This document shows positions 17,424 through 30,537 of a DNA stretch of 45,219 bases, one piece after another. The stretch is from Sanguibacter inulinus (GTDB lineage: Bacteria > Actinomycetota > Actinomycetes > Actinomycetales > Cellulomonadaceae), in NCBI RefSeq assembly GCF_013415325.1, contig NZ_JACBYE010000036.1:1-45219 (forward strand), in the 5' to 3' direction. Under the pieces are notes generated by a model that was not told the origin of the DNA, ran no database searches, and saw only the letters and a list, made by a program, of their open reading frames with translations. The stretch's first letter is position 1. Every line of letters starts with the position of its first letter. The translations under genes were made by a program, and so were the position numbers.

Positions 17424-19421
17424 TCAGCGCAGGTCGAGGTCTTCCGGACCGCTCGGCACCACGTCGAGACGTGATCCCGGGATGGCTCCGAGCAGCTCGC
17501 GCGTGTACTCCTCGCGCGGGCTGTCGAAGACCTCGTCGGTCGTCGCGGACTCGATGATGCGACCGTTCTTCATGACGCACACCTGGTCGGCGATCTGGCG
17601 GACCACCGCGAGGTCGTGCGTGATGAACAGGTAGCTCAGGTCGAGCTCGGACTGCAGGTCGTTGAGCAGCTCGAGGACCTGCGCCTGGACGAGCACGTCG
17701 AGGGCCGAGACGGCCTCGTCGCACACGATGACCTCCGGGCGCAGGGCGAGGGCACGCGCGATCGCGATGCGCTGACGCTGCCCTCCCGAGAGCTCGTTGG
17801 GGAAGCGGCGCATCGTCGACTGCGGCAGGGCCACCATGTCGAGGACCTCACGGACCCGCGCCTCGCGCTCCTTCTTGCTGCCGACCTTGTGGATGCGCAG
17901 CGGCTCTTCGATGGTGCGGAAGATCGAGTACATCGGGTCGAGCGAGCCGTAGGGGTTCTGGAAGATCGGCTGCACCCGGCGACGGAAGTCGAACAGCTCC
18001 GAGGAGCCGAGCGTCGACAGGTCCACGCCGTCGAAGTAGATCTTGCCCTCGGTCGGGTCGAGCAGGTTGAGCATGATGTTCGCGACGGTGGACTTGCCGG
18101 AGCCCGACTCCCCCACGAGCGCGACTGTCGTGCCCTTCTTGATCGAGAACGACACGTCGTCCACGGCCTTGAAGTCCTGGTGCTTGCCGGACCCGCGGAT
18201 CTGGAACACCTTGGTGAGGTTCTCGACCACCACGACGTCGTCGCGGCTGCTGCTGACACCGTCACCAGCGGTCGCGGCAAGGAGGTCCTGAGACTGCTCG
18301 CCGCGTGCCTTGGCCGACTGGATGCGACGCGAGGCGAGCGACGGGGCCGCCGCCACGAGGCGCTGGGTGTACGGGTGCTGCGGGTTGGCGAGGATCTCCC
18401 GCGAAGGCCCGGACTCGACGACACGCCCGCGGTACATGACCACGAGGTGCTCGGCCCGCTCGGCCGCGAGGCCGAGGTCGTGGGTGATGAACAGGACCGC
18501 TGTGCCGAGCTCGCGCGTGAGTCCCTCGAGGTGGTCGAGGATCGTCCGCTGCACCGTCACGTCGAGCGCCGACGTGGGCTCGTCCGCGATGAGCAGCTTC
18601 GGCCGCGAGGCCAGGCCGATCGCGATGAGCGCACGCTGACGCATGCCGCCCGAGAACTCGTGCGGGTACTGCTTGGCGCGGCGGACCGCGTCCGGCAGAC
18701 CAGCCTCGGCAAGCAGACCGGCGACTCGGTCGTCGACGTTCGCCGTCGTGGTCTCGGCCTCGACGACCGAGCGCGCCGAGGCGAGCCCGACCTCTTCGAG
18801 GATGCTCACGGCTGCGGCCTTGGTCGTGGACCCCACGACGATCCGCTGGTCGGCCGTGGCGACAGCAGCCTCGACGGCTGGGCCGTCGACGCCGGGCTGC
18901 TCGGTGAGCGAGGTGCGCAGCACCCCGAGCAGCGAGGCCTTGCCCTTGCGCCCGATGAGCAGGTCACCACCGGTGACACCGCCCTCGGACGAGCCGATCG
19001 CCTCGGCGAGGCCCTTGCGGGTCCCGCGGGAGACGTCGATGTTGTTGGCGGCCAGCGCCTCCTTGACCTGGAAACCGATGCTCCAGACAGGGTTGAGGTT
19101 CGACATCGGGTCCTGAGGGACCAGGCCGATCTGGTCGCCGCGCATCGCGACGATCTCCTTCTTCGAGGCCGTGGTGATCTCGCGGCCGTCGAAGCGGATC
19201 GAGCCGCCCGTGACTTTGCCGGTCCCGGGGAGCAGGCTGATGATCGCGTGCGCCGTCGTGGACTTGCCCGAGCCGGACTCGCCGACGATCGCGACGGACT
19301 GGCCGGGGTAGATCGTGAGGTTGGCGCCGCGGACCGCGGGCACCTCCCCGTTGATGGTCGTGAACGTGACGTCGAGGTCACGGATCTCCAGGAGGGGCTC
19401 CTGGCCTGCTGTCGCGCTCAT
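17424..19421 (-). CDS. Peptide ABC importer ATPase, fused DppD-DppF, with insertion in first ATPase
   Basis: This 665-residue double ATPase powers the importer encoded upstream. The first half has Walker A GESGSGKST (about 48-56), Q-loop PQDPMSNLNP, signature FSGGMRQRALIA (about 256-267) and LLIADEPTSALD. The second half (from about 385) has GESGSGKST, LSGGQRQRIAIARA and VIVCDEAVSALD, where the usual DEPTSALD is DEAVSALD. Between Q-loop and signature of the first half lies an extra Gly/Ala/Ser-rich segment of about 90 residues (roughly 137-230) that the paralog at 23616-25337 lacks. The ATG overlaps the dppC stop by four bases. Peptides are the likely substrate class; exact specificity is unknown. 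Confidence 0.9.
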   Translation of the reverse strand: MSATAGQEPLLEIRDLDVTFTTINGEVPAVRGANLTIYPGQSVAIVGESGSGKSTTAHAIISLLPGTGKVTGGSIRFDGREITTASKKEIVAMRGDQIGLVPQDPMSNLNPVWSIGFQVKEALAANNIDVSRGTRKGLAEAIGSSEGGVTGGDLLIGRKGKASLLGVLRTSLTEQPGVDGPAVEAAVATADQRIVVGSTTKAAAVSILEEVGLASARSVVEAETTTANVDDRVAGLLAEAGLPDAVRRAKQYPHEFSGGMRQRALIAIGLASRPKLLIADEPTSALDVTVQRTILDHLEGLTRELGTAVLFITHDLGLAAERAEHLVVMYRGRVVESGPSREILANPQHPYTQRLVAAAPSLASRRIQSAKARGEQSQDLLAATAGDGVSSSRDDVVVVENLTKVFQIRGSGKHQDFKAVDDVSFSIKKGTTVALVGESGSGKSTVANIMLNLLDPTEGKIYFDGVDLSTLGSSELFDFRRRVQPIFQNPYGSLDPMYSIFRTIEEPLRIHKVGSKKEREARVREVLDMVALPQSTMRRFPNELSGGQRQRIAIARALALRPEVIVCDEAVSALDVLVQAQVLELLNDLQSELDLSYLFITHDLAVVRQIADQVCVMKNGRIIESATTDEVFDSPREEYTRELLGAIPGSRLDVVPSGPEDLDLR

Positions 19422-20413
19422 CGCTTCCGCGCCTTCGGGTCGAGGGCGTCACGCACGGCGTCGCCCATCATGATGAAGCTGAGGACCGTGAGCGCGAGCG
19501 CTACCGACGGGTAGAGCAGCACGCTCGGGTTGGTCCGCAGCGACGACTGCGCGGTCGCGATGTCGTGGCCCCAGGACAGGACGTTCTGAGGCAGGCCCAG
19601 CCCGAGGAACGACAGCGTCGCCTCGGCGACGATGAAGGTGCCGAGGGAGACCGTGGCGACGACGATGATCGGCGCAGCCGCGTTCGGGATCACGTGGCGT
19701 CCGAGGATGCTCAGGCGCGAGGCGCCGAGGGCCTTGGAGGCCGTCACGTAGTCGTTGTTCTTGACGCTCATGACAGCACCACGGGTGATGCGGGCGACCT
19801 GGGGCCAGCCGAAGACCGTGAGGACCGCGACGACGTTGAGGACCGTGCGGCCCTCGGAGAAGACCTGGCCGAGGACGATCGCGGCGAGCACGAGCGGGAT
19901 CGCGAAGAAGATGTCCGTGATCCTCGACAGGATCGTGTCGAACCAGCGGCCGTAGAAGCCCGCGAGGGCGCCCATGAGGCCGCCGAGGAGCACGACGCCG
20001 ATGGTCGTCAGGACTCCGACGGACACCGACGCGCGTGCCCCGTAGATGACACGGGAGTAGACGTCGCAGCCCTGGCGGTCGAAGCCGAAGGGGTGACCGG
20101 ACTGGGGGTTGCCCAGGGAGTTGCGGAGCTCGCAGAAGCGCGGGTCGACCGACGTGAACAGGCCGGGGAACAGCGCGACGAGGAGGACCGCGAGGATGAG
20201 CGCGGCGGACACCCAGAAGAGCACGCGGTGGCGCAGGTCGCGCCAGGCGTCGCGCCACAGGCTCGAGGCCGGTGCGCTCTCGTCGACCTTGTCGACGACG
20301 GCCACGGGGGTCTGCGAGACGTCGGCGACGAAGTGGGTCTGGCCGGGGCGGGGGGTGCTCGCCGTGGCGTCCTCGGAGGGCCGGCTGTGAGCCGGCGTGG
20401 TGCCATCAGGCAT
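19418..20413 (-). CDS. Peptide ABC importer permease, DppC type
   Basis: A 331-residue integral membrane subunit. After a soluble N-terminal tail of about 65 residues comes the first span (VLFWVSAALILAVLLVALFPGL), then the binding-protein-dependent permease core. The EAA loop that contacts the ATPase reads ASKALGASRLSILGRHVIPNAAA. The LGLGLPQNVLSWG segment and the conserved end (MGDAVRDALDPKARKR) are typical of DppC/OppC. The ATG lies inside the end of dppB (8-base overlap), so the permeases are made together. Confidence 0.93.
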   Translation of the reverse strand: MPDGTTPAHSRPSEDATASTPRPGQTHFVADVSQTPVAVVDKVDESAPASSLWRDAWRDLRHRVLFWVSAALILAVLLVALFPGLFTSVDPRFCELRNSLGNPQSGHPFGFDRQGCDVYSRVIYGARASVSVGVLTTIGVVLLGGLMGALAGFYGRWFDTILSRITDIFFAIPLVLAAIVLGQVFSEGRTVLNVVAVLTVFGWPQVARITRGAVMSVKNNDYVTASKALGASRLSILGRHVIPNAAAPIIVVATVSLGTFIVAEATLSFLGLGLPQNVLSWGHDIATAQSSLRTNPSVLLYPSVALALTVLSFIMMGDAVRDALDPKARKR

Positions 20414-21332
20414 AACGGATCCTTGGGTCCAGGACTGCGTAGAGCAGGTCGACGAGCAGGTTCGCGATGATGTAGACGACCACGAGGATCGTCACGAAGG
20501 TGACGACTGTGGACGGCTCGCCGCGGATGATGGCCTGGTACAAGGTCCCACCCACACCTGCGATGTTGAAGATGCCCTCGGTGACGATGGCGCCGCCCAT
20601 GAGCGCGCCGAGGTCGGCCCCGAGGAAGGTGATCACGGGGATGAGGGAGTTGCGCAGCACGTGCACGTTGACCACGCGCCCGCGAGACAGGCCCTTGGCC
20701 GTCGCGGTGCGGACGTAGTCGGCCGAGAGGTTCTCGGCGACCGAGGTCCGGGTCAGTCGCAGCACGTACGCGAAGGAGACGGCGCCGAGCACGATGGCGG
20801 GCATGAGCAAGGACTTCAGGCTCACGTCTCCGCCGACCGTGGGTGGCAGCCAGCCGGCCTTCACGCCGATGAAGAACTGCAGCACAAAACCGATGACGAA
20901 GGTCGGCACGGCGATGACCACGAGGCTGACGAGCAGCACTGTGCCGTCGAAGATCCCGCCCTTGCGCAGACCGGCGATGAAACCGATGCCGACGCCGAGC
21001 ACGGCCTCGATGACCAGGGCCATGAGCGCGAGCTTGATGGTGACCGGGAAGGCCCGGGCGACCACGTCGAAGATCGGCTGGCCCGAGAACGAGTTCCCGA
21101 GGTCGAAGGTGAAGATGCCCTTGAGGAAGAGCAGGTACTGGACGATGAGTGGCTTGTCCAGGTTGAACTGCGACCGGATCTGGTCGGCGACTGCAGGCGA
21201 GAGCCCGCGGTCTCCGCCGAGCGCCTGGATCGGGTCACCCGGGAGCGCGAAGACCATGAGGTAGATGAGCAGCGTTGCGCCGATGAACACCGGGATCATC
21301 TGCAACAGCCTGCGTCCGATATATCGGACCAT
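20406..21332 (-). CDS. Peptide ABC importer permease, DppB type
   Basis: A 308-residue permease of normal family length. It starts with the typical MVRYIGRRLLQMIPV, which forms the first span, has the polar loop ending in DKPLIVQYLLFLKGIFTFDLGNS, and carries the EAA loop RTATAKGLSRGRVVNVHVLRNS near 223-244. The end, LLYAVLDPRIRYA, is standard. AGGAAGGA precedes the ATG. It follows the binding-protein gene after a 172-base gap that holds a strong hairpin, which probably lowers its expression relative to the binding protein. Confidence 0.93.
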   Translation of the reverse strand: MVRYIGRRLLQMIPVFIGATLLIYLMVFALPGDPIQALGGDRGLSPAVADQIRSQFNLDKPLIVQYLLFLKGIFTFDLGNSFSGQPIFDVVARAFPVTIKLALMALVIEAVLGVGIGFIAGLRKGGIFDGTVLLVSLVVIAVPTFVIGFVLQFFIGVKAGWLPPTVGGDVSLKSLLMPAIVLGAVSFAYVLRLTRTSVAENLSADYVRTATAKGLSRGRVVNVHVLRNSLIPVITFLGADLGALMGGAIVTEGIFNIAGVGGTLYQAIIRGEPSTVVTFVTILVVVYIIANLLVDLLYAVLDPRIRYA

Positions 21333-21504: not shown

Positions 21505-23121
21505 TCACCACTGGCTGATCTCGTCAGCCTGTGCCCACAGCTCCTTCGCCTTCTCCGGGTTGTAGACGAGCGCGTCGACACCGGCGAGGGTGTCGCTCCA
21601 GCCGTCGATCACCGGGGAGGTGAAGTCGGCGGCGGGGGTGCGGGTGCCCTCGAAGATGGTGTCGGTGATCGCCTCGCGGTCGATGGCCATCGAGATGGCC
21701 TGACGGCGGAGCTTGCCCTCTTCACCCTCGAAGTGCTCGAGGTTCTGGGCGATGGTGAAGGACTGGAACACGGCAGCGGGCTGGTTGACCGCACGGTCGC
21801 CGAGGTCGTCCTGGAACGTGCCGAACGCGCTGTCGGGGATGCCGTCGAACACGTCGAGGTTGTTGGCCAGGAGGTCGTTGTACGCCGAGTCGAAGGAGTC
21901 GTAGAACACGAAGCTCACACCGGTGTTGGCGGGGGTGCGCGGGCCCGAGTAGTCGGGGTTCACGACGAGGTCGACGGCCTCGTTGTGGCGCCATGCACCG
22001 TTCATCATGTACGGCCCGTTGCCGATCGGCGCCTCGCCGAAGGCAGCCATGTCCGCGTACGCGGCGGACGGCAGCGGCAGGTACGCGCTGTAGCCCAGGC
22101 GGAGCGGGAAGTCGGCCTCAGGCTGGTTGAGCTTGACCGTGAAGGTGGTGTCGTCGACGACCGCGAGGCCGGTGAGCGGCGAGTCGGCGTCGGCCGAGTA
22201 GCCCTCGATGCCCTCGAAGAAGTACGAGGAGAGCTGGGCGTTGCTGAGCAGCGCGCCGTAGTTCCACGCGTCGACGAAGGACTTCGCGGTGACGGCCTCA
22301 CCGTTGGTGAAGGTCGTGCCGCCCTTGATCTTGATGGTCCAGGTCTGCTGGTCGTCGCTCGTGATCGACTCGGCGAGCTCGTTGACCGGCGCACCCGACT
22401 CGTCGTAGGACACGAGGCCCTGGAAGAGCGCGTCGATGATGCGACCGCCGCCGACCTCGTTGGTGTTGGTCGGGACGAGCGGGTTCTGGGGCTCGGTGCC
22501 GTTGGCACGGACGGGGGTGCCGTCCTCCTTCGTCACGGCGTAGTACAGCGGGACGCTGTTCCAGCCGAAGGCGACGTTGTCGACGGCCTCGGAGGAACCA
22601 CCGGTGACGTTGGCGTACCACAGCGGGATCGCGGGGAGGTCGGCGAGGAGGATCTCCTGAGCCTGGTCGAAGAAGCCGTTGGCCTCGTCGATGCTCTTCG
22701 CGCCCTGACCCTGCGTCAGCAGGTCGTCGAACTCGGGGTTCGAGTACTCGCCGTCGTTCGAGCCGGCACCGGTGCCGTAGAGCGGGCCGAGGAAGTTGTA
22801 GAGGCTGGGGTAGTCAGCCTGCCACCCGGTGCGGAACGCGCCGGTCATCTTGCGCTCGGTGACGTCGGTGCGGAGCTCGGCGAAGGTCGCGTACGGCTTG
22901 CCCTCCGCCTCGATGCCCAGCGTGTTCTTGATGCTGTTCGCCGTGGCGTCGACCCAGGCCTGGTGGCCACCGTCAGCGTTGTAGGCGATGGTGAAGACGT
23001 TGTCCGAGGTGGACCCCGAACCCTCTCCGCTGCCGCCGTTGTCGTCGCTGCCGCACGCCGAGAGGGCGAGCACGCTGGCAGCCGTGACGGCTGCGACAGC
23101 GCTGAGCTTCCTGATCTTCAA
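21505..23121 (-). CDS. Circularly permuted peptide-type solute-binding lipoprotein (SBP_bac_5)
   Basis: This 538-residue lipoprotein is the binding subunit of the first importer. It starts at TTG 23121 behind AGGAGG; a signal peptide and lipobox (LSAC, Cys 23) are followed by a Gly/Ser linker. The fold is then out of order. Residues about 42-198 hold the part that normally ends SBP_bac_5 proteins, including RTGWQADYPS near 97-106, which in OppA-type proteins lies near the C-terminus and contacts the peptide. From about 203 the normal N-terminal part begins (TPVRANGTEPQNPL, then GGGRIIDALFQGLVSYD) and continues to the helix NPEKAKELWAQADEISQW, where the protein stops. That stop is exactly where the usual order would continue into VFTIAYNADGGH. 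No lobe is duplicated or missing. Probably functional, since the genes around it are intact; that is inference. Confidence 0.88.
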   Translation of the reverse strand: MKIRKLSAVAAVTAASVLALSACGSDDNGGSGEGSGSTSDNVFTIAYNADGGHQAWVDATANSIKNTLGIEAEGKPYATFAELRTDVTERKMTGAFRTGWQADYPSLYNFLGPLYGTGAGSNDGEYSNPEFDDLLTQGQGAKSIDEANGFFDQAQEILLADLPAIPLWYANVTGGSSEAVDNVAFGWNSVPLYYAVTKEDGTPVRANGTEPQNPLVPTNTNEVGGGRIIDALFQGLVSYDESGAPVNELAESITSDDQQTWTIKIKGGTTFTNGEAVTAKSFVDAWNYGALLSNAQLSSYFFEGIEGYSADADSPLTGLAVVDDTTFTVKLNQPEADFPLRLGYSAYLPLPSAAYADMAAFGEAPIGNGPYMMNGAWRHNEAVDLVVNPDYSGPRTPANTGVSFVFYDSFDSAYNDLLANNLDVFDGIPDSAFGTFQDDLGDRAVNQPAAVFQSFTIAQNLEHFEGEEGKLRRQAISMAIDREAITDTIFEGTRTPAADFTSPVIDGWSDTLAGVDALVYNPEKAKELWAQADEISQW

Positions 23122-23546
23122 TGTTCCTCCTGGAAGGACTGGGGGCCCCCGCACCGGGTGCGTCCCGCTCGAGGGGCCCGGGAAAGATCCGGGCGCGCGA
23201 GAGGGAGAGAGACCGTCGTATGTAGAGGAAACTATCGGCTCTCCGGGGCACCTCTGACCATCGGGGGGCCTGGGGTGGTGATCGTTACCGAAGTGATACT
23301 GGTCAGTAACACTGGAGACACAGTGTTCACATGCTGGACATGCGGCGAGCAGATCGTTGCGATCATTGACCTGTCAGCCCCTCTGAACTGGGACGTTAGC
23401 GCAGGTACATCGGGCGTCCGACCGCCTGCGAGCACGGTCCGAGATCACCCTCGTCGGCGTGGTCCCGCCGCAGCAGGCCGCCGGCGCTCCCCCGGTTGCG
23501 GTCGGCCGCGACGTGCGGCAGAGGTCCCGGCGGCACCAGACGCACG
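23122..23546. other. Intergenic leader and promoter region of the permuted binding-protein gene
   Basis: No gene is supported here. The stretch holds the ribosome site next to the TTG start, a small leader hairpin (GCCCGG at 23176-23181 pairing with 23189-23194), a locally more AT-rich part near 23220-23400, and the palindromic upstream element shared with the second cluster. Read-through from the second cluster is limited by the hairpin at 23547-23584. Confidence 0.7.
23279..23331. promoter_or_regulatory. Shared upstream element with imperfect palindrome (copy 1)
   Basis: This 53-bp block matches 40 of 53 bases of the block at 30137-30189. Its core is GTTACCGAA, a 9-base spacer GTGATACTG, and GTCAGTAAC (23284-23310), an inverted repeat with 7 of 9 pairs. 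A GTTCACA motif follows at the same 15-base offset in both copies. The core starts 163 bases from the TTG start, against 161 for the other copy. It is most likely a regulator-binding site or promoter; the regulator is not identified. Confidence 0.75.
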
Positions 23547-26425: not shown

Positions 26426-27943
26426 TCACCTCCTGATCCGCGGGTCGAGGGCCGCGTACGCAAGGTCGGCGACGAGGTTCATGACGATCGCCGCGGTGCC
26501 CGTCACGAGGAAGAAAGCCATGACAGGGGCCGGGTCGACGTTGGACAGGCCGGTCTGGAACAGCTCACCCATGCCCTTCCAGCCGAAGACCTTCTCGGTG
26601 ATGACGGCGCCGCCGATGAGACCTGCGAAGTCGAAGGCCACGATGGTCGTGATCGGGATGAGCGCGTTGCGGAAGGCGTGCTTGACGATGACCACCCGCT
26701 CGGAGAGCCCCTTGGACCGTGCTGTGCGGACGTAGTCCTGGTTCATCACCTCGAGCATCGAGGAGCGCGTGTAGCGGGTGTACGACGCGACCGAGATGAG
26801 GGTGAGGACGATGGTCGGCAGGATGAGCTGCGTCCCCTGGTCGAGGAAGGTGTCCCAGAACGATCCCACGAGGTTGGGGGTCTCGGAGCCGATGGTCGAG
26901 ATCGGGCGCGGCTTGAGCTTGAGCAGGCCGCTCCAGTTCGAGATCGCGTGGTCGGCGACGGTGAGGATGCCCATCATCACGGCTGTCGAGATCGAGACCG
27001 TCATCGCGAGACGACGCGACTCTCCGCCCCAGAACCAGCCGACGGCTGCGCCCACCACGACGGTGACAAGACCGAGGACCGCGATGATCCCCCACGAGGG
27101 GTCTTCGAGGATCGGCATGGTGACGAAGTAGCTGACGAGGCCCGCACCGACGGTGGTGAGACCCGCGTAGAGCACCCGGCGGTTGCTGAGCCCGACGACC
27201 AGGACCGTGAGGCCGACCGCGAAGGCCGCCGCGACGAGGACGACCACGCCGACACCGAGAGCCGGGCGGCGGAACCACTCGACTGCGCTGAAGTAGAACA
27301 TCGCTGCCGCGACGAAGACGATCGCGGTGCCCGCGGTCAGCAGGCGCCGCTTGCGGTCACCACCGAGGATCCCCTGCAGCGCGAAGCCGATGACCAGCGC
27401 GGTGATGATGATCTGCACGGGTGAGAAGGTCGGTTCGACGATCCAGTCGTTGAACCTGATCGCGCCGTACTCCTTGAGCAGGACCGCGACCCAGAACACG
27501 GGGAGGGAGTAGAAGAGGAAGGCCATGAAGGTCACGACGTAGTCGAAGCCCGAGTACTGGCGGATGGCCGTCATGATCCCGACGAGCACACCGATGATGA
27601 TCGCGAGCACCGTTGCGAGGATCACGAGTCGGAGGGTCGAGGCGACGGCGTTGCCGAGGAGGGCTGTGACGTCTGTGCCGGAACGGTTGGTCCCGAGGTC
27701 GCAGTTGAGCGTGAAGCACTTGGACACACCGCGGAGCCAGTCCCAGTACCGCGCGTACCAGGGCTCGTCGAGCCCCATGAACGAGGTGCGCTGCTGGATG
27801 AGGTACTCGCGGTTCTTCGCGTTGCTCTCGCGGAGGTCCTTGAGGGGGTCTCCCGAGTTGATCACCAGGACGTAGAGCAACAGTGAGCCGCCGAGCAGGA
27901 CGAGGAGTGACTGTCCTAGTCGACGCAGGATGAACTTGGTCAC
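26426..27943 (-). CDS. Enlarged peptide ABC importer permease, DppB type (second cluster)
   Basis: At 505 residues this DppB is about 190 longer than its paralog (308). The N-terminal span (MTKFILRRLGQSLLVLLGGSLLLYVLV), spans 2-3 (about 100-155) and the C-terminal core with EAA loop RTARSKGLSERVVIVKHAFRN (about 400-420) are normal. Between them, at about 171-345, lies an inserted block with about six further hydrophobic segments separated by short charged turns. The GTG start has GAAGGG seven bases upstream. Longer DppB forms of this kind occur in some actinobacteria; the role of the added helices is not known to me. Confidence 0.9.
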   Translation of the reverse strand: MTKFILRRLGQSLLVLLGGSLLLYVLVINSGDPLKDLRESNAKNREYLIQQRTSFMGLDEPWYARYWDWLRGVSKCFTLNCDLGTNRSGTDVTALLGNAVASTLRLVILATVLAIIIGVLVGIMTAIRQYSGFDYVVTFMAFLFYSLPVFWVAVLLKEYGAIRFNDWIVEPTFSPVQIIITALVIGFALQGILGGDRKRRLLTAGTAIVFVAAAMFYFSAVEWFRRPALGVGVVVLVAAAFAVGLTVLVVGLSNRRVLYAGLTTVGAGLVSYFVTMPILEDPSWGIIAVLGLVTVVVGAAVGWFWGGESRRLAMTVSISTAVMMGILTVADHAISNWSGLLKLKPRPISTIGSETPNLVGSFWDTFLDQGTQLILPTIVLTLISVASYTRYTRSSMLEVMNQDYVRTARSKGLSERVVIVKHAFRNALIPITTIVAFDFAGLIGGAVITEKVFGWKGMGELFQTGLSNVDPAPVMAFFLVTGTAAIVMNLVADLAYAALDPRIRR

Positions 27944-28166: not shown

Positions 28167-29981
28167 TCAGGACGCGCGGACCCACTGCTCGGCGTTCCAC
28201 GCGACGGTGTTCTGCGTCGCCGTGCGGCGGACGTTCGAGAGCGTCGAGTCGAAGGCGCTCACACCGGGGTGCGCGAAGACCGGGATGCCGTACAGGTTGT
28301 CCCAGAGCAGCTTCTCGATGGTCTGGATCTGGGTGAACTGCTCGTCCTCGTCGAGGGTGGTCGCGAGGGCCTCCCACGCTGCGTCGACCTCGGCGTTGGA
28401 GAACCCGCCGTAGTTCTGAGCGCCTGTCGAAGAGTAGATGTTCTGCCCCGAGACGATCTGGCCCGATCCGGCCCAGGCGAAGAGGGCGACCTCGTAGTCA
28501 CCGCGCTCGAGCGTGCCGCCCGGTGCGAAGAAGTCCTCGTTGCCCGCGTCGGTCACGTTGAAGCCGGCCTCGTCGCAGCTGGACTTGATGAGGGCGACCT
28601 GCTCGGTGCGGCGCTGGTTCGGAGCGGAGTAGCCGATGCGGACGTCGATCGGTCCGGTCACGCCGGCCTCTTCGATCTTGGCCTTGGCACCGTCGATGTC
28701 GACCTCGTCGTAGCGACCGTCATAGGAGGTCTCGAGGAGCTCGGAGTAGCGCTCCTGGAACGGGAAGACCTCGCGGGCGTTCATGACGACAGCCTCGGGG
28801 TCGACAGGCTTGACCAGGTTGTCGACGATCTGCTGACGCGGCACGCACATGGCGAAGGCCTCACGGAGCGCGAGGTTGTCGGCGAAGACACCGTTGTTGA
28901 AGTTGAAGTCCAGGTGCTCCCACGTGAGGGACTGCCCGGTCTCGAGGGTGACGGAGTCGCCGATGCCCTCGAGCTGGGCGACGGTGTCGACCGTGGCCTG
29001 CGGCTCGATGACGTTGAGGTCACCGTTCTGCAGGGCCTGCACCATGGCCTCAGGGGCCACGAAGCGGTAGACGAGCGTCTTGGTCGCGGGCGGGGTACCC
29101 CAGTAGTTCTCGTTGGCCTCGAGGGTGATCGACTCGCCCGCGGTCCAGGAGGACAGCTTGTACGGGCCGGAGGACGGACGGATCGCCTCGTCGGGCAGCT
29201 CGCCCGGCGTCGGGGAGAGCCATCCGGTGTTCCAGAACTCGGCCACGGGGCGGAGCGTCTCGACGTCCTTGGCCTTGATGGCCTCGACGAGCTGCTCGAC
29301 CGTGAGGCCACCCTGCTCGGCGGCGATGTGCGCGGGGAAGGCGCTGGTCACCTGGAGCTGGTAGTCGGGGTACGGGCTCTCGTAGTCGTACGTGAAGGTC
29401 TTGCCGCCGATCTCACCCTGCGGGCCCTCGAGCACGCGGCCGCCGAACTCGAGGCCGGAGACGCTGTTGAACAGCGGGACGGGGTTGCCCTCGTCGTCGA
29501 CGCCGTCCGTCATGGACTGAGCGGCCCAGTCGAGGAGGTAGTCCTCGTACGCGATCGGCGTGCCGTCAGACCAGACCGCCGCGTCGTTGAGGGTGTACTC
29601 GACCGACATCGGGTCTTCGGACGTCAGCTTGAACGTGCCGTAGTCCTCGTCCTGGTAGATGGCGCCGTCGGTGCCGAAGTACATGAAGCTGCCGAAGATG
29701 CGGTCGTTGACCACAGAGTTGTAGGTCGAGTAGGTCTCCGGCGTGTTGCCGTTGTACCCGAGCCACTCCTCACCACCGAGGCTGTAGGAGATCGAGTCGT
29801 CAGCCGTGACGACCTCGCCGAGGTCTTCCTTGCCGGTGCTGGTCGGCTCGGCAGAGCCACCGGTGCTCGACGACGACGCGCTGGGGGCGTCGTCAGAGTC
29901 GTCGGACGACGTGCAGCCGGCGAGCACGAGAGCGCCCGTGGCCAGCATCGCGACCGTGGCGTGAGTGCGCCTGATCTTCAA
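28167..29981 (-). CDS. Peptide-type solute-binding lipoprotein (SBP_bac_5), normal domain order
   Basis: The 604-residue lipoprotein should capture substrate for the second importer. It starts at TTG 29981 behind AGGAGG; a signal peptide with lipobox LAGC is followed by a Ser/Asp-rich linker. The order of segments is standard: N-terminal part with VNDRIFGSFMYFGTDG, AAVWSDGTPIAYEDYLLDW in the first lobe, then SSGPYKL, the ALREAFAMCVPRQQIVDN helix, and the C-terminal lobe (PIDVRIGYSAPNQRRTEQ to the end). Similarity to the permuted paralog is low apart from the fold and the identical start region. Upstream lies copy 2 of the shared palindrome. Substrate class is peptides or similar, by family only. 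Confidence 0.9.
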   Translation of the reverse strand: MKIRRTHATVAMLATGALVLAGCTSSDDSDDAPSASSSSTGGSAEPTSTGKEDLGEVVTADDSISYSLGGEEWLGYNGNTPETYSTYNSVVNDRIFGSFMYFGTDGAIYQDEDYGTFKLTSEDPMSVEYTLNDAAVWSDGTPIAYEDYLLDWAAQSMTDGVDDEGNPVPLFNSVSGLEFGGRVLEGPQGEIGGKTFTYDYESPYPDYQLQVTSAFPAHIAAEQGGLTVEQLVEAIKAKDVETLRPVAEFWNTGWLSPTPGELPDEAIRPSSGPYKLSSWTAGESITLEANENYWGTPPATKTLVYRFVAPEAMVQALQNGDLNVIEPQATVDTVAQLEGIGDSVTLETGQSLTWEHLDFNFNNGVFADNLALREAFAMCVPRQQIVDNLVKPVDPEAVVMNAREVFPFQERYSELLETSYDGRYDEVDIDGAKAKIEEAGVTGPIDVRIGYSAPNQRRTEQVALIKSSCDEAGFNVTDAGNEDFFAPGGTLERGDYEVALFAWAGSGQIVSGQNIYSSTGAQNYGGFSNAEVDAAWEALATTLDEDEQFTQIQTIEKLLWDNLYGIPVFAHPGVSAFDSTLSNVRRTATQNTVAWNAEQWVRAS

Positions 29982-30537
29982 TGTTCCTCCTCGAAGGATG
30001 CGAGATACCCGTGGGCCTGCGACACGTCTCACCCCTGCCGGGACGACCGGGGGGATGCGGCTGGTCTGGGGATCGTGTGTACGAGAAAGTTACCTACGTG
30101 ATGTCGACCACTCGAACGAATCTCACCCATAAAGGCTGATCGTTACCGAGTTGATACTGCTCGGTAACATTGGTCATCTGCCGTTCACAATGTGGACCGT
30201 GGACGCTGTGCACCTTGGTATCTCAACGTTTTCAGAGATGCTGAACCGGGACCCAAGCACCACTACAGCCCTCACGAGCGTTCCCGCATGCCTTTTTAAG
30301 GTGACAAGAGCGCTGAAATCGTGTCAACCGCGCGAGACGAAACGATCTGGTCATTGCTCACCCGTCGACGACGCCGCTCCTCGCACCCCCGATGTGCAGG
30401 GTCGTCCTACGTCCTCCACACAGTCGTCACGAGCGGTCCCACGCCCAGCGCCGGGCGACGACTAGTCTCGGGAGGTGCCGGGACATCTCGACCGACGAGG
30501 TCGCCCCGACCTCGGACCGACAGGAGCACGACGACAG
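29982..30537. other. Divergent intergenic region between binding-protein and relQ-like genes
   Basis: About 555 bases without a supported gene. It holds the leader of the binding-protein gene, the palindromic element at 30137-30189, and an AT-richer stretch from about 30070 to 30340. The promoter of the alarmone synthetase gene should lie at its right end; a TAGTCT hexamer near 30463 is a candidate -10 with no clear -35. Short frames here (such as 30151-30465) have poor codon use and no ribosome site. Confidence 0.6.
30137..30189. promoter_or_regulatory. Shared upstream element with perfect palindrome (copy 2)
   Basis: The core GTTACCGAG, spacer TTGATACTG, CTCGGTAAC (30142-30168) is a perfect 9-bp inverted repeat. 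The flanks TGATC on one side and GTTCACA at a 15-base offset on the other are conserved with copy 1 at 23279-23331. It lies 161 bases from the TTG start of the second binding-protein gene. It probably binds a dimeric regulator; which one is unknown, and no candidate regulator gene lies beside it. Confidence 0.78.

Follow-up and report, generated by a model that had tools for sequence, protein, structure and literature searches.

The window, the whole 45,219-nucleotide stretch of Sanguibacter inulinus DNA that was analysed, carries an ABC importer operon in which the gene for the putative binding lipoprotein has a rearranged coding sequence (Table 1). In the encoded protein a signal peptide is followed by segment B and then by segment A, such that ~157 residues precede ~335 in the reverse of the usual arrangement.

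Table 1 Features of the permuted binding-protein gene and its operon partners (positions are those of the window).
Feature	Position	Strand	Details
Gene of circularly permuted peptide-binding lipoprotein (predicted)	21505..23121	-	538 aa, TTG start, TGA stop, open frame
Ribosome-binding site AGGAGG, ahead of the TTG start (putative)	23126..23131	-	From sequence
Signal peptide, ending in lipobox LSAC with Cys as residue 23 (predicted)	23053..23121	-	From translation
Segment B, spanning residues 42-198; placed first here, C-terminal third in standard-order relatives	22528..22998	-	
GWQADYP ligand motif, Trp100 and Asp103; counterpart of M. tuberculosis DppA W442/D445	22807..22827	-	Alignment position
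Junction linker EDGTP (residues 199-203), old C-terminus to old N-terminus	22513..22527	-	
Segment A, spanning residues 204-538; placed last here, N-terminal two thirds in standard-order relatives	21508..22512	-	
DppB-type permease (BPD_transp_1)	20406..21332	-	Profile match, synteny
DppC-type permease (BPD_transp_1, OppC_N)	19418..20413	-	Profile match, synteny
Fused DppD/F-type ATPase (several ABC_tran stretches, oligo_HPY)	17424..19421	-	Profile match, synteny

PF00496 (SBP_bac_5) was the sole Pfam match to the window protein (196 bits; curated cut-off, 32.4). It aligned in two stretches that were not collinear, the best of which placed residues 245-532 on profile positions 2-276, and a standard-order relative (L068) gave one stretch (profile 2-366). 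Mycobacterium tuberculosis DppA (7jls, E = 1.5e-155) was the best sequence match among solved structures and was again aligned as two swapped stretches, query residues 203-538 falling on chain positions 30-377 and query residues 43-200 on 381-538, which together used all but a few residues of the window protein. When a doubled standard-order protein served as query, the window protein was matched across query positions 339-837 with an E value of 2.1e-227, far past chance. Identity to standard-order relatives reached 72% in A and 78% in B. The same homologous segments are therefore present, swapped, each occurring once and with the old ends joined, as in a circular permutant. No NCBIfam family scored above its cut-off for the window protein; its best score among the DppA/OppA equivalogs was 97 bits versus a cut-off of 947 (NF011684), and L068, in the standard order, also fell below that cut-off (127 versus 947).

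These results bear out the sequence-only reading of the locus, which had described the standard C-terminal part as being read first. The swapped match to 7jls confirms that description, and the two PF00496 stretches contradict the single collinear match that was to have overturned it. The frame, said to be intact, is open throughout 23121..21505 (-), with a TTG start behind AGGAGG and the lipobox LSAC. The claim of no loss and no duplication is accurate apart from a few linker residues at the termini, and the permease and ATPase partners, called normal, are the adjoining DppB-, DppC- and DppD/F-type genes. As judged from these comparisons, the gene at 21505..23121 encodes a lipoprotein of the SBP_bac_5 family that is circularly permuted, and its importer operon is normal.

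The permuted gene occupies the operon position of its standard-order orthologues. The gene order SBP-B-C-ATPase was found in 15/17 permuted and 14/14 standard loci examined, the two remaining permuted loci being extra copies in one genome of the Bifidobacteriaceae group (G356). The sequence features expected of a DppA-type lipoprotein were detected, namely the lipobox, the GWxxDYP motif and the adjacent DppB, DppC and DppD/F genes. In M. tuberculosis DppA the Trp and Asp of this motif (W442/D445) are part of the peptide pocket (PMC6751184), and the motif, in the form [GS]WxxD[YF]P, occurred in 42 of 45 rows permuted at this cut (type I), in the single row with a different permutation (type II) and in 125 of 134 standard rows. 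Ratios of dN/dS, calculated with a Nei-Gojobori script for three Cellulomonadaceae or Microbacterium-group pairs, were about 0.24, 0.29 and 0.17 (0.083/0.34, 0.157/0.548 and 0.062/0.374). Because of the motif, the operon and this purifying selection, we infer that the window protein is the binding protein of a peptide ABC importer of the DppA type (cluster C). The fold is likewise presumed to be retained; the permutant would still close over peptides like a Venus flytrap and then hand them to DppBC, with its lipid anchor hanging on the C-terminal instead of the N-terminal half. An AlphaFold model built from a 5-row alignment was too poor to use (mean pLDDT 47.5, pTM 0.32). The binding protein of the neighbouring importer (28167-30032) gave one collinear Pfam stretch.

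The rearrangement is inherited and common to other species, genera and families, a point that the sequence-only reading had left to a search of related genomes. Within the source genus the permuted order was found in 5/6 genomes, two of them single-contig, and in four of the five other genomes the permuted protein aligned end to end (75-86% identity). Two further Cellulomonadaceae genera also carried it, at 72% (G160 and G163) and 66% (G020) identity. With 3 to 6 candidates scored per genome under strict E-value limits, which makes the following counts lower bounds, the permuted order occurred in at least 8/221 Cellulomonadaceae genomes, at least 29/213 Actinomycetaceae genomes (all of one genus; 27 near full length and two partial) and at least 3/398 Microbacteriaceae genomes (E = 1e-155 or better), where one more genome carried a different permutation. 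In the Actinomycetaceae genus five other genomes gave matches over A alone, and the two fetched had the standard order. Four permuted genes were present in 2/18 genomes of the Bifidobacteriaceae group, and the permuted order also occurred in Microbacterium halotolerans, M. halophytorum and Frigoribacterium sp. JB110. Among 80 named loci, four had this permuted order, one had another permutation and 75 were standard. Family names were assigned through contig coordinates shared with named loci, namely Cellulomonas (G010 = L071, G143 = L079 and G139 = L078) for Cellulomonadaceae, Gleimia europaea (G524 = L134), Flaviflexus (G414 = L123) and Bowdeniella (G657 = L100) for Actinomycetaceae, Rathayibacter (G875 = L067) for Microbacteriaceae and a metagenome-assembled genome (G457 = L061) for the Bifidobacteriaceae group.

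Two broader samples placed these counts in a wider setting. For the order Actinomycetales, 347 evenly drawn genomes were searched with a doubled standard protein, a query that shows any cut, and two candidates were scored per genome; among the matches listed, 11 of 173 matching genomes were permuted at this cut. In a sample of the phylum (346 genomes, 37 matching) two permutants were detected, both within the order. Outside the order 29/29 matching genomes read as standard, although one of these (G1271) was unclear, with a match that crosses four stops.

Individual genomes showed heterogeneity of other kinds. G356 encodes three permuted paralogues (L160, L227 and L232; respective identities to the window protein, 56, 49 and 37%), and for two of them the flanks examined contained neither a permease nor an ATPase gene of this operon. 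Genus g35 contains both forms (L239 vs L238): G160 and G163 are permuted, G161 and G165 are standard, and the standard form is not the closest relative in the tree, hinting at operon replacement or at loss and regain. In the Actinomycetaceae group (g43) at least 5/29 permuted copies are broken (L161/L250, L193, L201, L234 and L235), the match changing frame, and L235 has ~1.1 kb of extra DNA between two parts of A. The gene is thus dispensable in that genus and seems to be decaying in part of it.

The position of this cut varies by only a few residues. In the window protein the chain is opened, giving the new ends, between '..ADEISQW' and 'FTIAYN', and it stops directly after the former. Across the four clades of permutants resolved below, the cut falls after ..AxxIsxW/F and before xFxIAYN or LTLAYN. 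Standard relatives stop one to a few residues past an ITK/VTK-like motif and their mature domain starts near (I/V)xxNGxEP; in the permutants a short turn, DG, GG or NG in most rows, links these old ends. The whole junction spans 29-31 residues in 48/48 rows (48 permuted genes after duplicate removal, broken copies and L062 included), and the linkers are alike in style across clades. This uniform closing suggests that the old ends may be adjacent strands joinable by one tight turn. The cut corresponds to approximately position 380 of M. tuberculosis DppA, well within its C-terminal half (residues 267-541; PMC6751184), and the lipid anchor would thus have switched to the opposite half of the protein.

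A second cut was found in one metagenome-assembled genome, Micrococcales bacterium 73-13 (L062, one assembly). Here the order is B2-A-B1 (type II), with the cut between '..FAGLRTEVND' and 'AFRTGWQ', an intact frame and a normal operon. Against DppA, this protein aligned in two stretches, 142-540 and then 43-153. No further cut site was detected among the matches listed for the order sample (347 genomes, two candidates scored per genome) or for the phylum sample, and two candidates for other odd orders (G730 and G436) proved to be standard.

Phylogenetic trees were built after rotating all proteins to the standard order and excluding matches shorter than 430 reference positions or 400 residues. 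A first quick tree comprised 180 non-identical rotated rows (45 type I, one type II and 134 standard); a careful mixture-model tree (89 rows) and pairwise tests (52 rows) used subsets chosen for spread. Three broken Actinomycetaceae copies (L161, L193 and L201) entered the 180-row tree as one aligned piece each, L193 also the 89-row tree, and the most divergent G356 paralogue (L232) the 180-row tree only. In both trees the permutants formed four clades, corresponding to Cellulomonadaceae (8 rows), Microbacteriaceae (Microbacterium and close relatives, 6 rows), Actinomycetaceae (27 rows in the 180-row and 10 in the 89-row tree) and Bifidobacteriaceae (4 and 3 rows). Standard Microbacterium proteins enclosed the permuted Microbacterium clade (100/96), and standard proteins of its own genus formed the sister group of the Actinomycetaceae clade (100/99). 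Attachment points of the Cellulomonadaceae and Bifidobacteriaceae clades were poorly supported in the 89-row tree; the latter stood beside the standard proteins of its own group in the quick tree (93, unstarred) but not in the careful tree. The 89-row tree implied four changes of arrangement over the 5-95% bootstrap range, at least three of them forced by starred branches, and one origin of the permutants was recovered in 0/200 bootstrap trees.

Constrained trees gave a similar result. Forcing all permutants into a single clade cost 229 log units and was rejected (AU test, P = 9.7e-50). When clades were joined in pairs (52 rows), the AU test kept apart Cellulomonadaceae and Microbacterium (P = 3.7e-6), Cellulomonadaceae and Actinomycetaceae (P = 1.7e-4), Actinomycetaceae and Bifidobacteriaceae (P = 5.5e-4), Microbacterium and Bifidobacteriaceae (P = 1.9e-3) and Microbacterium and Actinomycetaceae (P = 6.2e-7), equating to 5/6 pairs. 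The union of Cellulomonadaceae with Bifidobacteriaceae was not rejected (P = 0.36), and these two could share one origin. With five pairs kept apart and this one not, the same cut appears to have arisen at least three times within the order, and probably four. A tree of A alone showed four changes, three of them forced. A tree of B alone, which is short and poorly resolved, showed five changes, one forced, and its Cellulomonadaceae rows did not form one clade. The downstream permeases and ATPase (collinear matches; 93 loci, 15 permuted and one type II; LG+G4, quick search) gave the same four clades, with four changes, three forced. This indicates that the operon descended with its bacteria and that the binding protein was permuted in place.

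As to how the permutation came about, we consider an in-place origin the likelier account: the binding-protein gene would have been tandemly duplicated at its present place, the end of copy 1 fused in frame to the start of copy 2, and the outer A1 and B2 lost. The signal peptide and lipobox have stayed at the front of the protein. Where duplication is the route to a permutant, fused tandem copies and intermediates at various stages of trimming are expected (PMC3320104). Tandem standard copies do occur, with two in Cryobacterium sp. PH31-AA6 (L068), seven in G027 and three in G654. In group g23 (L308-L313; 6 genomes, picked for long open frames) two adjacent standard genes share one frame with only stop codons between them; taken at first for fused double genes, these pairs are one step from a fused double protein. 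Trimming of a B-A-B stage could produce either of the two permutations observed. Among the permuted loci examined, neither a B-A-B nor an A-B-A intermediate was found. Nor did 48 loci show a remnant of B behind (500 bases) or of A ahead (700 bases) of the permuted genes, except for fragments of copies broken inside (L234, L193 and L250) and one chance-level match. The missing intermediate would suit a cut-and-paste of B ahead of A, or fission and fusion, with no duplication involved. Such a route is possible but the less convincing of the two, given the tandem standard copies in several lineages and the B2-A-B1 order of L062, which is what a B-A-B intermediate gives by reciprocal trimming.

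Our main reading is a working permutant, and for the fact of permutation, its inheritance and its multiple origins we put the probability at about 0.85. The most serious challenge is a single origin followed by horizontal transfer or paralogue survival, after which gene conversion by local standard copies would have overwritten A and B and hidden the ancestry. It would account for linkers of one length and similar style, for a cut placed within a few residues in all clades and for the failure to separate the Cellulomonadaceae and Bifidobacteriaceae permutants. Uniform linkers, though, fit convergence and common descent alike, and the whole-protein, A-only and operon-gene trees each show four separate permuted clades; in the first and the last of these trees, two of the clades are strongly supported as neighbours of standard proteins from the genus to which they belong. 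Moreover, no genome among the matches listed combined a close standard copy with a permuted one (three of the searches scoring 3 to 6 candidates per genome under strict E-value limits), and the permuted gene stood at the ancestral operon place in 15/17 loci examined; we regard this history as unlikely. Still harder to credit is a permuted order that was ancestral in Actinomycetales and reverted many times. Change counts on an unrooted tree cannot separate gain from loss, but once the tree is rooted on Nakamurella, Blastococcus, Kineococcus and G037 this history takes one gain and 16 reversals versus four gains, and no permutant was found outside the order in the phylum sample.

The two other challenges concern the gene itself. 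The permutant might be expressed but no longer bind peptides, as a structural remnant or in a new role, and the breakage of at least 5/29 Actinomycetaceae copies points that way. Such a loss is nonetheless very improbable for the permutants as a whole, given the low dN/dS in three pairs, the ligand motif kept in 42/45 rows and an operon intact in 15/17 permuted loci examined. An assembly artefact, the other ground on which the initial description was to be abandoned, draws on the fragmentation of the source genome (109 contigs). It is scarcely credible, as the same order is shared by diverged, independent genomes, including the single-contig G003, G004, G163, G020, G274 and G616.

M. tuberculosis DppA (Rv3666c; PDB 7jls, 6e3d and 8wd9), a cluster C lipoprotein and the partner of a Dpp-type ABC importer, MtbDppBCD (PMC12136057), is homologous to the window protein over the whole length and has the same ligand motif, but is ordered A-B where the window protein is B-A. 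Permuted binding proteins are already known in other clusters. Treponema pallidum Tp0684 (MglB-2) is described, with its relatives, as a circularly permuted sugar-binding protein of 'cluster Bc' that retained ligand binding (PMC4990184). Like the window protein it is a lipid-anchored ABC binding protein with its ends moved within a lobe; unlike it, Tp0684 is a cluster B sugar binder whose permuted part is poorly conserved relative to E. coli MglB, and the accessible part of that report does not describe repeated origin at one cut. Glycine betaine- and molybdate-binding permutants were found with CPSARST (PMC2395249). These were detected by structure, at under 24% identity, whereas here identity to standard relatives reaches 72% (A) and 78% (B), which allows both the rearrangement and its past to be traced. 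For C5 DNA methyltransferases, natural permutation has been inferred several times with a uniform pattern, by proposed duplication (PMC5944983); that is an enzyme family, whereas here a secreted binding protein is permuted with its signal peptide kept in front. No report of circular permutation in SBP_bac_5, DppA or OppA proteins was found among the matches listed in our literature search, which covered titles and abstract openings and a minority of the subscription journals; this agrees with the earlier statement that none had been described in the family. What is new here is the parallel origins.

Many natural circular permutants are known only as old pairs whose history is unreadable. In the present family, permuted and standard orthologues occupy equivalent operon positions in related species, some of them congeneric, and two questions become testable, namely the route to natural permutants and whether folding or function dictates where the chain is cut. 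We offer tentatively, and with some doubt, that the same loop was re-cut in four or more lineages since an anchor on the C-terminal half is useful, with tandem in-frame copies supplying the material. If so, the benefit of the shifted anchor may lie in tethering, docking on DppBC or release, and the family would amount to a set of natural replicates for the study of topological evolution, the second cut site being a bonus. A large two-lobed protein can, on this evidence, apparently be re-threaded repeatedly in nature. On the practical side, profile annotation can split such permuted proteins into partial matches, and the proteins themselves may provide ready-made permuted scaffolds for biosensor design.

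A separate irregularity was observed in the importer upstream. Its permease (26426-27943, reverse strand, 505 aa) has BPD_transp_1 profile positions 1-184 spread over residues 118-505, with ~200 residues inserted within the domain. Homologues of similar length (45% identity) were present in two Cellulomonas loci (L071 and L079), beside a standard binding protein.
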